Of a stretch of 64,000 nucleotides of DNA, positions 34,329 to 49,797 are shown one piece after another. The notes beneath the pieces were generated by a model. That model made no database searches. It saw only the letters and a program-made list of their open reading frames with translations, and was not told where the DNA came from. The stretch is from Flagellimonas ochracea (GTDB taxonomy: Bacteria > Bacteroidota > Bacteroidia > Flavobacteriales > Flavobacteriaceae): the NCBI RefSeq assembly GCF_009903685.1, contig NZ_JAAABI010000002.1, positions 434,001-498,000 on the forward strand, written 5' to 3'. The stretch's first letter is position 1. Each line of letters begins with the position of its first letter. Position numbers and translations under genes: made by a program.

Positions 34329-34430
<102 letters not shown>

Positions 34431-44239: not shown

Positions 44240-44848
44240 ATGGCTTTTGAATTACCAAAATTACCTTATGCATATGATGCACTAGAACCACATATTGATG
44301 CAAGGACCATGGAAATCCACCATACCAAGCACCACAATGGTTATACCACCAAATTGAATGGTGCCATTGAGGGGACTGACCTTGAGGGCAAAGGAATCGA
44401 GGACATTTTGTCCAATCTGGATATGTCCAACGGAGCCGTTAGAAACAACGGGGGAGGATTTTTTAACCATTGCTTGTTTTGGGAAGTGATGTCACCTAAT
44501 GGTGGAGGAACTCCGAGCGGAGACCTATCCTCTGCCATCAATGATGCCTTTGGCTCTTTTGATGCTTTTAAAGAAAAGTTTGCCAGCGCCGCTGCGACGC
44601 AGTTTGGATCTGGATGGGCTTGGTTGTGTGTGCACAAAGGAGGCAAAGTGGAAGTTTGCTCAACGCCCAACCAAGATAATTCCTTGATGCCCGGAGTGGG
44701 TTGTGGTGGACATCCAATTTTGGGACTGGATGTATGGGAGCATGCTTATTATTTGAATTATCAAAACAGAAGGCCGGATTATATAGCTGCCTTCTTCAAT
44801 GTGATTAACTGGGAAAAGGTTGCCGAGAATTACGAGGCCGCAAAATAA
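44240..44848 (+). CDS. Superoxide dismutase (Fe/Mn family)
   Basis: A 202-residue cytoplasmic enzyme. Metal ligands are the histidine in [10 protein letters not shown], the histidine in NHCLFW, and the aspartate and histidine in [21 protein letters not shown]. The WEHAYYLDY-type signature is present with N in place of D. Metal preference, Fe or Mn, cannot be decided here. A terminator hairpin follows at 44874-44900, and the small-RNA array lies beyond it. Confidence 0.96.
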
Positions 44849-44900: not shown

Positions 44901-44920
44901 GTTTGGAAAGTGCCTCAAAT

Positions 44921-44992
44921 AGAAAAGGGTGAGGAAGCCCCCACCCTTTTCGTCCCAAATCTTACCATAAACTTAACCTACTTATGCTATGG
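44921..44992 (-). ncRNA. Predicted small RNA, unit 1 of a three-unit array
   Basis: On the minus strand a promoter (45028-44998) is followed after five bases by a 39-nt block (44992-44954) and a terminator hairpin (44950-44923, GGGTG/CACCC core extended by AAAA/TTTT) with a T-rich tail. The block is the same as in units 2 and 3 except one base (T for C in the CATGG section, 44969). The unit is about 72 nt and carries no ORF on the minus strand. Expression is inferred. Read on the plus strand the block gives NLTYLCYG but without an ATG in this unit. Confidence 0.6.
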
Positions 44993-44997
44993 CGAAA

Positions 44998-45028
44998 CTA
45001 AAATACTGGTATTGTGAGAAATAACAAA
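44998..45028 (-). promoter_or_regulatory. Promoter of small-RNA unit 1
   Basis: TTTG (45028-45025), 19 bp, then TATTTTAG (45005-44998), one mismatch to TAnnTTTG, and five bases to the conserved block. Spacing is ideal. Confidence 0.6.
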
Positions 45029-45112
45029 GGGTTTTGTATAAATTTTTGATTTTTAGTGGAAAAATAAAGACAGCAGTTCGTCGATAAAATTGATAAATCC
45101 TTGGTATTCAAA

Positions 45113-45185
45113 CATAAAGAAGGCGGAGTGATCTCCGCCTTCTTTCCCCAAATCTTACCATGAACTTAACCTACTTATGCTATGG
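45113..45185 (-). ncRNA. Predicted small RNA, unit 2 of a three-unit array
   Basis: The 39-nt block (45185-45147) is followed by a 12-bp hairpin (AAGAAGGCGGAG/CTCCGCCTTCTT, loop TGAT, 45144-45117) and a T-rich tail. The -7 box TACATTTG (45198-45191) is a perfect consensus and again ends five bases before the block. The hairpin stem sequence differs wholly from units 1 and 3 but folds the same way. A 23-codon plus-strand ORF (45160-45231, MNLTYLCYG...) overlaps it and is a less likely alternative. Confidence 0.62.
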
Positions 45186-45190
45186 TTCTC

Positions 45191-45221
45191 CAAATGTAAT
45201 GCAGAGGCGTCCTTTTGGAAA
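45191..45221 (-). promoter_or_regulatory. Promoter of small-RNA unit 2
   Basis: Perfect -7 box TACATTTG (45198-45191) with a TTTC (45221-45218) 19 bp upstream in the -33 position (one mismatch to TTTG). Confidence 0.6.
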
Positions 45222-45329
45222 AAGCTTTTAGACGAAACCCTTTAAATTCGGATGAAATGCGATTATTGGAAATTAAGACAAGTTATTCGACAAAAATAAA
45301 AGTGAATGTGAGGGGCAAGGATGCTATAA

Positions 45330-45403
45330 AATAAAAAAGGTGGAATAGCTTCCACCTTTTTTGCCCCAAATCTTACCATGAACTTAACCTACTTATGCTA
45401 TGG
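45330..45403 (-). ncRNA. Predicted small RNA, unit 3 of a three-unit array
   Basis: The block (45403-45365) is identical to unit 2. It is followed by a 13-bp hairpin (AAAAAAGGTGGAA/TTCCACCTTTTTT, loop TAGC, 45362-45333) and a T-rich tail. A -7-like TACTTTAG (45416-45409) ends five bases before the block, as in the other units. A 9-bp inverted repeat (45386-45394 with 45412-45420) joins the block to the promoter and is unique to this unit. It is the unit closest to the PurF-like gene. Confidence 0.6.
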
Positions 45404-45408
45404 CAACG

Positions 45409-45442
45409 CTAAAGTAGGTTTGAGGATTTCCCAATGTACAAA
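45409..45442 (-). promoter_or_regulatory. Promoter of small-RNA unit 3
   Basis: -7-like TACTTTAG (45416-45409) with TTTG (45442-45439) 22 bp upstream; spacing is slightly long, so this is the weakest of the three. Confidence 0.45.
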
Positions 45443-45460
45443 AACCCGTTAATCTACTCG

Positions 45461-45503
45461 TTTCATCGATGAAATGCACGCATCTGTAAACCAGGTACAG
45501 ATG
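45461..45503. other. Palindrome and hairpin between the PurF-like gene and the array
   Basis: A perfect 14-bp palindrome TTTCATCGATGAAA (45461-45474) is followed by an 8-bp hairpin, CATCTGTA (45481-45488) with TACAGATG (45496-45503). Neither has a T tract. The hairpin could be a weak end to the PurF-like mRNA; the palindrome could be a dimeric protein site. Confidence 0.45.
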
Positions 45504-45508
45504 TACAT

Positions 45509-47407
45509 TTAATAGGCTCTTTGATTCTTTCCTTCGTAGAAATTGATGAAGGCCCTGTTGACGACCTTGTTCCCTCCTGGGGTAGGATAATTTCCGGTGA
45601 AGTACCAATCACCAAGATTGTTTGGACATGCCTCATGTAAACTCTCAATGCTCTGATAGATGATATCCACTTCTGCATTAATAGATTCCGGACTTAATAT
45701 TTCTGCAATCTTTTTGGAAATTTGCTCCGCACTAAATGGCTGGTAAAACTCCTTTACATAGTTTACCACATCTTTGTCTTTAGAATCTAACTGGGCAAGA
45801 CATTTTTCATAGATGTCCTTTATTATTTTTGTTGTGCCGTGTTCTTCGTGCAAGGCCTGGGCAGCTTTAAAAGCCACAAAATCTTCCAGCTTGGCCATAT
45901 CAATGCCATAGCAATCAGGATAGCGTATTTGCGGGGCGGAGGAAACCACAATAATCTTTTTTGGTGATAAGCGGTCCAAAATCTTAAGGATACTCTTTTT
46001 TAACGTAGTACCTCGAACTATGCTATCGTCAATAATAACCAGATTGTCGTTCTCTTTCACGGAGCCATAGGATATATCGTATACATGGGTCACTAAATCA
46101 TCACGGCTGCTATCTTGGGTAATGAAGGTCCGTAGTTTGGCATCTTTGATGGCAACTTTTTCTATTCGGGGGCGTACATCCAAGATTTCATGGAGCTCTT
46201 TGCGAGTAATTTCTGGCCCCATGGCCAATATTTGTTCTTCCTTTCTTTTGTTGAGGTAATTCTGGGCCTCTTTTACCATACCAAAAAAGGATGTTTCCGC
46301 CGTGTTGGGAATATAAGAGAACACCGTATGGGCCAAATCGTGGTCTATTGACTTCAGAATTTGTGGAAACACCAGTTTACCCAACATTTTTCGTTCTTGG
46401 TAGATTTCTTTGTCGCTTCCACGTGAAAAATAAATGCGCTCAAAAGAACAGGCCTTGCGTACCGTTGGCTCTTGAATTTGCTCCAATTTAGCACTGCCAT
46501 CTTTTTTGATGATAATGGCATGCCCCGGATCCAGTTCGCGCACATCATCATATTTTACATTGAAAACGGTTTGGATTGCAGGCCTTTCCGAAGCTACCAC
46601 CACAATTTCATCATCCTTATAATAATAGGCAGGACGAATTCCTGCAGGGTCTCGAACAACAAAGGCATCACCATGTCCCAATAATCCGCCCATGGTATAG
46701 CCGCCATCCCAGTTTTTGGAAGCTTTTCTTAGTATCTTTCCAACATTAAGTCGCTCTGCTATCAATGGGGAAGCTTCCCTTTTGTTATACCCTTCTTTTT
46801 TTATTTGCTTGTAAAGCTTGGCCACGGCATCATCCAAAAAATGACCAATTTTTTCCATAACGGTAATGGTGTCGGCCATTTCCTTTGGGTGCTGTCCCAA
46901 TTCCACCAAATTGCCGAAAAGCTCGTCTACATTGGTCATGTTAAAGTTGCCGGCCACAATAAGGTTTCGATGCATCCAGTTGTTTTGTCTTAAAAAGGGG
47001 TGCACATTTTCTATGCTGTTCTTGCCAAAGGTACCATAGCGCACATGGCCCATCAATAGTTCACCTATATAGGGAATGTTGCTCTTCTGCAATTGTACAT
47101 TATCGACATAGTCGGGATTTTCAGTGAGCGATGTATTGATACGCGCATTGATTTGTGCAAAAATATCCTGTATGGGCTGTTGGTTTGCGGACCGCACCCG
47201 GCTCATGTACCTTTCACCGGGGGCCATGTCAAGTTTTATACTGGCAAAGCCAGCACCATCTTGCCCTCGGTTGTGCTGTTTTTCCATCATTAGGTACATT
47301 TTGTTCACTCCATAGAAAGCCGTACCGTACTTTTCCTTGTAGTATTCCAGGGGTTTAAGCAAGCGGATCAGTGATATTCCGCATTCGTGCTTAATGGCAT
47401 CACTCAT
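45509..47407 (-). CDS. Amidophosphoribosyltransferase-like protein (PurF family, long form)
   Basis: A 632-residue protein with an N-terminal class II glutamine amidotransferase domain and a phosphoribosyltransferase domain. The nucleophile candidate is Cys9 in KHECGISLIR, so an eight-residue propeptide would have to be removed, as in Bacillus PurF. The PRPP loop is NLVIIDDSIVRGTT. The protein is about 130 residues longer than ordinary PurF, with an extra region after residue 100 and a long C terminus. Bacteroidota often have this long form in addition to a standard purF; a separate role is possible. PfkB kinase lies upstream on the same strand, and the small-RNA array is downstream. Confidence 0.82.
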   Translation of the reverse strand: MSDAIKHECGISLIRLLKPLEYYKEKYGTAFYGVNKMYLMMEKQHNRGQDGAGFASIKLDMAPGERYMSRVRSANQQPIQDIFAQINARINTSLTENPDYVDNVQLQKSNIPYIGELLMGHVRYGTFGKNSIENVHPFLRQNNWMHRNLIVAGNFNMTNVDELFGNLVELGQHPKEMADTITVMEKIGHFLDDAVAKLYKQIKKEGYNKREASPLIAERLNVGKILRKASKNWDGGYTMGGLLGHGDAFVVRDPAGIRPAYYYKDDEIVVVASERPAIQTVFNVKYDDVRELDPGHAIIIKKDGSAKLEQIQEPTVRKACSFERIYFSRGSDKEIYQERKMLGKLVFPQILKSIDHDLAHTVFSYIPNTAETSFFGMVKEAQNYLNKRKEEQILAMGPEITRKELHEILDVRPRIEKVAIKDAKLRTFITQDSSRDDLVTHVYDISYGSVKENDNLVIIDDSIVRGTTLKKSILKILDRLSPKKIIVVSSAPQIRYPDCYGIDMAKLEDFVAFKAAQALHEEHGTTKIIKDIYEKCLAQLDSKDKDVVNYVKEFYQPFSAEQISKKIAEILSPESINAEVDIIYQSIESLHEACPNNLGDWYFTGNYPTPGGNKVVNRAFINFYEGKNQRAY

Positions 47408-49675: not shown

Positions 49676-49797
49676 GGTGAAAGGAAATGCTTAGTTTTAC
49701 TACTAAATATGATAAGCTAAAGTAGTGTTCTCAATCTTAAGATGTTTAATTTGAGGCACATTTTATCGACAAATGGTGTATTTAAACCAAAGTTTTA

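Follow-up and report, generated by a model that had tools for sequence, protein, structure and literature searches.

A tandem array of small RNA genes conserved across the Flavobacteriaceae and its probable role in base-pairing control of exported-protein mRNAs

In Flagellimonas ochracea, three paralogous small RNA (sRNA) genes stand in tandem between sodA and purF. They belong to what is apparently a real, deeply conserved and undescribed sRNA family, although identity with one of the Rfp1-89 RNAs is not excluded. The probability that the array encodes a LytTR-type-controlled, multicopy base-pairing sRNA repressing exported and outer-membrane proteins is put at roughly 0.72. In the proposed mechanism, each copy of this Flavobacteriaceae-specific, ~72-nt trans-acting sRNA would use its own primary-sigma promoter and intrinsic terminator. 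At most copies a regulator, most likely a LytTR-type response regulator, would act on 20/21-bp repeats arranged in tandem immediately before the promoter, the putative control element of the sodA-proximal copy being a different one. The RNA is envisaged as three parts: a 5′ hairpin presenting AGUAGGUUAA, a linker, AUUUGGGG, that stays single-stranded, and finally a terminator. The hairpin and linker segments would pair with CCCC(AAAT)...TTAACCTAC sites that extend into the start codon or lie shortly before it, and occlusion of the start region would block translation of exported and outer-membrane protein mRNAs. The sign of this regulation is inferred.

The window, meaning the whole 64,000-nucleotide stretch of DNA that was analysed, carries the array at 44920-45416, where three units are read on the minus strand with predicted 5′ ends at 45404, 45186 and 44993. 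Each unit consists of a TAnnTTTG-type -7 box, four bases, a conserved 5′ block (consensus RCCAUARCAUAAGUAGGUUAAGUUYAUGGUAAGAUUUGGGR), a hairpin of 13 bp whose loop has 4 nt and whose arms are 92-100% complementary, and a T-rich tail. A preliminary description of this DNA had reported three 39-nt blocks, one with a single base change, and they are indeed present at 44954-44992, 45147-45185 and 45365-45403, the right-hand two identical and the left differing at one base. The three -7 boxes, the hairpin with T-rich tail in every unit and the convergent protein-gene flanks that it described were likewise recovered. With the start set by the box at -12..-5, the predicted transcripts are ~72-76 nt long; expression is inferred, without RNA-seq or northern data. 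The genes meet the definition of an sRNA (own promoter and terminator, short non-coding transcript) at sequence level only. No further copies were found in the host genome in a search at up to 3 mismatches. The convergent flanks, named from sequence and kept across the family, are sodA (Fe/Mn superoxide dismutase; 44240..44848, plus strand) and purF (amidophosphoribosyltransferase; 45509..47407, minus strand). Elsewhere in the window, a tRNA-Ala (GGC) at 34329-34403 on the plus strand is the sole tRNA and the sole Rfam match.

All elements of the array lie on the minus strand, and the three terminator hairpins are supported by folding and covariation. The purF-proximal gene A (45331..45404; predicted +1 45404) scores 96.8 bits with the covariance model R1 and has its -7 box TACTTTAG (45409..45416) 5 nt upstream. 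It comprises the 5′ hairpin GCCAUAGCAUAAGUAGGUUAAGUUCAUGGU, the linker AAGAUUUGGGGCAAA and a terminator with the hairpin AAAAAAGGTGGAA/TTCCACCTTTTTT (45333..45362); upstream lies the direct repeat GCATTTCATCGATGAAACGAGTAGATTAACGG (45446..45477), a weaker LytTR-like site (PWM 16.2 bits). The middle gene B (45114..45186; predicted +1 45186; R1 95.3 bits) is preceded by the -7 box TACATTTG (45191..45198) and by the direct repeat GCATTTCATCCGAATTTAAAGGGTTTCGTCTAAAAGC with a period of 20 bp (45222..45260; PWM 33.2 bits), and its terminator hairpin lies at 45116..45145. The sodA-proximal gene C (44920..44993; predicted +1 44993; R1 88.7 bits) has a variant linker, GGGACG in place of GGGGCA, the -7 box TATTTTAG (44998..45005) and a terminator hairpin at 44922..44951. 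Here the conserved element CAATACCAGTA (45004..45014) takes the place of the direct repeat.

The family extends well beyond the host. A DNA search recovers the unit, usually in three copies, from 71 of 73 genomes in the genus, and the two genomes without it are assemblies only 75% and 83% complete. Across the Flavobacteriaceae, the core CATAAGTAGGTTAAGTTNATGGTA occurs at up to 3 mismatches in 237/299 genomes and 190/236 genera; a reversed-pattern control almost always gives zero. Scores of at least 67 bits with R1 are confined to this family, the best outside it reaching 36 bits. Named hosts include Flagellimonas/Allomuricauda, Maribacter, Zobellia, Cellulophaga, Winogradskyella, Aquimarina, Salegentibacter, Aequorivita and Flavobacterium. 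Synteny persists as well: of 118 named loci, 114 have purF and/or sodA next to the copies. In complete loci the copy number is 1, 2, 3, 4, 5 or 6 in 42, 23, 20, 10, 5 and 1 cases, respectively, and copies within an array share one orientation. A mobile origin was considered and rejected: viral contigs and plasmids that were searched contained no copies, a single 30-nt phage match being irrelevant.

Promoter geometry and RNA structure are conserved along with the sequence. In 334 of 394 distinct units, 4 nt separate the -7 box from the R of RCCAT, which places the box at -12..-5, the sigma-A box position given for Flavobacterium psychrophilum (PMC9723704). A further TTTG or TTTC motif that had been noted upstream (-33) amounts to only a weak T-rich stretch across homologues. 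In the terminator, double-sided changes affect 11 of 12 pairs and 99.3% of cells are paired (140 distinct units), bearing out the compensatory pairing read from the three window copies. By contrast, the 5′ half, described as mostly unpaired, is predicted to fold into a hairpin with the stem RCCAU/AUGGU in all units tested. Its outer stem is nearly invariant, and two inner pairs show compensatory changes in the 140 units. In 34 of these the innermost helix is disrupted, so the safe reading is a stem presenting a loop around GUAGGUUAAG, with AGAUUUGGGG after it single-stranded. The segment AGUAGGUUAAGUUCAUGG is proposed as a northern probe target. The array lies far beyond chance because the unit recurs so widely in genus and family against a control near zero, and because the box position is fixed and the terminator pairs covary. 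There is thus hardly any doubt that the genes and their conservation are real, and the tandem sRNA array that the preliminary description had proposed is strongly supported by family-wide conservation, promoter geometry, terminator covariation and synteny.

Upstream of most copies lies a direct repeat of TTYRWC with a period of 20/21 bp, whose downstream repeat starts near -50 (as read in the window, GCATTTCATC). It is present in 98 of 131 diverse upstream regions, compared with a mean of 5.2 and a maximum of 13 in shuffles. LytTR sites generally consist of two 9-11-nt repeats with an 11-13-nt spacer, and for YpdB, a LytTR regulator of Escherichia coli, the bound site is a direct repeat of GGCATTTCAT (PMC4847170). 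The array meets this geometry of two direct repeats with a spacer upstream of a promoter, and LytTR-type control of most copies is the favored inference, held with moderate confidence. The host genome encodes 18 LytTR genes, none of which could be singled out. LytTR autoregulation was rejected, as none of the 18 has a clear adjoining repeat by PWM. Genome-wide, matches to the strict repeat pattern show only modest enrichment, and those elsewhere precede mixed genes. Because of this modest enrichment and the lack of clear repeats beside LytTR genes, the acting regulator is not identified. A second strong tandem TTYRWC repeat, ACATTTTATCGACAAATGGTGTATTTAAACCAAA (window 49758-49791, plus strand; PWM 22 bits), lies just upstream of a small gene (49840..) that reads like an acyl carrier protein and possibly responds to the same regulator as the sRNA array.

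In 38 of 59 multi-copy loci, the final, sodA-proximal copy carries an upstream element of the CAATACCAGTA class in place of the direct repeat. This different element suggests that paralogues may answer to different signals. The CAATACCAGTAWTTTAG element (window 45004-45014; homologous loci L052, L095, L135, L190, L208 and L222) is conserved ahead of the sodA-proximal copy in several genera, which suggests an unknown second regulator.

Candidate targets were sought in collinear 0.5-Mb stretches of four Flagellimonas-type genomes, in which 344 genes had three or more orthologous start regions. The screen's top two genes encode a 910-aa CarboxypepD_reg protein (PF13715) and a 107-aa protein with a type IX secretion system (T9SS) sorting domain (PF18962). 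The former (C22:587507), whose product has a signal peptide, carries CCCC-N13-TTAACCTAC at -36..-8; in the latter the predicted pairing spans the AUG. In terms of duplex energy the real sRNA beats all 30 shuffled sRNAs, but start regions are not separated from coding windows (best -32.9 vs -31.6), and energy alone was therefore discarded as evidence for targets.

Firmer evidence comes from TTAACCTAC, the complement of the invariant loop. Among its 12 non-array occurrences in the whole host genome, three lie 15-24 nt before the ATG of exported-protein genes (chance 0.0013 by area and 0.0024 from permuted 9-mers). These genes encode PorP/SprF (PF11751, TIGR03519; C11:279097), the CarboxypepD_reg protein and a lipoprotein-like protein, and CCC(C) is present on the 5′ side of all three seed sites. 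The CarboxypepD_reg site survives in 27 of 30 species; the 5′ UTRs of this gene are alike overall among many of them, so its conservation is only partly independent evidence. For the bipartite pattern CCCC-N8-15-TTAACCTAC, 6 of the 20 non-array sites listed fall at start regions (P 3e-5), five of the six before genes with signal-peptide-like N-termini. The 20 sites comprise 19 from other genera, an incomplete list, and the host PorP/SprF site; raw genome counts of CCCCN{8,15}TTAACCTAC were left out because the pattern also catches array copies one base shorter. As a separate observation, TTAACCTAC occurs 15 times in the host genome, three of these lying in the array, whereas the reversed word occurs 124 times. 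The count for TTAACCTAC is within the permuted-word range in a 0.5-Mb stretch and thus probably reflects composition or codon usage rather than avoidance.

The array thereby has the hallmark of a trans-acting sRNA, a conserved seed with a conserved complement at mRNA start regions, even though the energy-only test did not separate start regions from coding windows. The earlier proposal of a trans-acting sRNA with one seed holds as to kind, given the excess at start sites, but not as to number: two seeds, AGUAGGUUAA and AUUUGGGG, are inferred. Base-pairing control of exported-protein mRNAs is likely, pairing in vivo being an inference.

Several loci may encode RNAs that bind the sRNA itself. 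In the 3′ region of hflX, between this gene and a DUF3078 gene (C22:204574; L479 1460-1625), CCAAATCTGCCACAGACTTAACCTACTTTGACCATGGC pairs along almost the whole sRNA 5′ domain and is followed by a terminator; the duplex reaches -45.6 kcal/mol, compared with -42.0 for the best unrelated window in 0.5 Mb. This site was at one point taken for a diverged fourth sRNA copy (30 bits). On its minus strand, however, there is neither -7 box nor terminator, and it was therefore reread as an antisense RNA on the plus strand. In another genus (L461), CCCCAAAG..TTAACCTACTTAA stands ahead of a terminator in an RNA-like unit next to the same DUF3078 gene, and in a third genome a gene's 3′ UTR has CCCCAAATCTTATTCTTAACCTAC before a terminator. 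The hflX-DUF3078 intergenic segments bearing on a sponge reading are CCAAATCT..CTTAACCTACTT. Locus L456 (G215:C1:3168167-3168193, minus strand) contains CCCCAAATATTTATGAACTTAACCTAC, an almost perfect sRNA complement (-43 kcal/mol) that overlaps the start of a 56-codon reading frame. The hflX-region RNA and the units in the other two genomes may be sponges, which is a lead and not a result. A family-wide three-layer circuit, in which LytTR-type signaling drives a tandem sRNA that silences exported and T9SS proteins and is neutralized by antisense sponge RNAs, remains speculative and rather doubtful.

Comparison with known families yields no match. No Rfam 15 model reaches its gathering score on the array, and sub-threshold hits to STnc40, sraA and others were rejected, as they rest on the terminator hairpin only. 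Flavo-1, which had been raised as a possible identity, is likewise an RNA motif of Flavobacteria, but its model does not match the array; in the Rfam check both Flavo-1 and Bacteroidales-1 were absent even below threshold (Flavo-1: E<=5). The LhrC1-7 sRNAs of Listeria, Qrr sRNAs of Vibrio and Cia-dependent sRNAs of streptococci are near-identical RNAs with their own promoters and a common response regulator, some of them in tandem. These sRNAs, named as multicopy sRNAs in the literature (PMC11697453), are unrelated to the array in sequence and phylum, and the regulator and targets of the array are predictions. Rfp18 of F. psychrophilum is conserved in flavobacteria, affects exported-protein (metalloprotease) mRNAs and is described with at least three stem-loops (PMC9723704). 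In the literature that was searched, no paper names the array RNA, which could still be one of Rfp1-89.

The closest system is FopS (RF04319)/GibS of Bacteroides thetaiotaomicron, which blocks translation at the start regions of SusC-type mRNAs (PMC11697453). The array RNAs could be its Flavobacteriaceae members, sharing descent, the same start-codon seed and an RRM-protein partner (RbpB, for which there are no binding data). Both are multicopy RNAs of ~70 nt, each with a sigma-A-type promoter of its own and ending in a terminator (PMC11697453), both combine a conserved 5′ domain with a variable terminator and predicted pairing at the translation start of surface-protein mRNAs, and both contain UUCAUGGUA..AGAUUU (in DNA letters TTCATGGTA..AGATTT) in the same order. 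Among the marks of FopS membership, many paralogues with their own promoters and terminators are found; a score at or above the RF04319 gathering cut-off of 56 bits and an R1/R1′ seed in a single-stranded 5′ end are not. RF04319 gives the window 21.5 bits at best and has no match in the genome, R1 scores FopS loci at most 21 bits, and the pairwise similarity is equalled by 72 of 5000 shuffles (1.4%). FopS copies are dispersed and their 5′ end is single-stranded, whereas the array has a predicted 5′ hairpin, the core AGUAGGUUAAGU, GAUUUGGGG, a tandem arrangement at purF-sodA and upstream LytTR-like repeats. No intermediates occur in other families. Common descent is thus unlikely; by analogy, the array would work like FopS, yet it does not qualify as a member.

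The RNAs might instead mainly bind or titrate a protein, for instance one with an RRM domain, with copy number setting the dose and base-pairing secondary. Multiple copies fit such a role, as does a very strongly conserved stretch of ~35 nt, longer than a short seed would require. Over-representation of the seed complement at exported-protein gene starts, its retention in a diverging 5′ UTR and the near-full complements found elsewhere speak against it and leave protein titration improbable. That the blocks are untranscribed DNA repeats or protein-binding sites can scarcely be maintained, for all the lack of transcript data, in view of the -7 box at exactly -12..-5, the compensatory terminator changes and the single orientation within the array.

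A base-pairing sRNA remains the preferred reading. Its conserved segments match the start sites of surface and exported-protein mRNAs, which makes a cell-surface switch its probable role. Few flavobacterial sRNAs have known targets, and through the array, post-transcriptional control of surface and type IX secretion proteins becomes directly testable. Because its synteny is fixed, the array can easily be located and deleted in whichever strain is studied; for reporters, the bipartite target site, itself conserved, is a ready basis. The Flavobacteriaceae are among the most abundant bacterial families in the sea, and most of their members carry this sRNA at one fixed locus.
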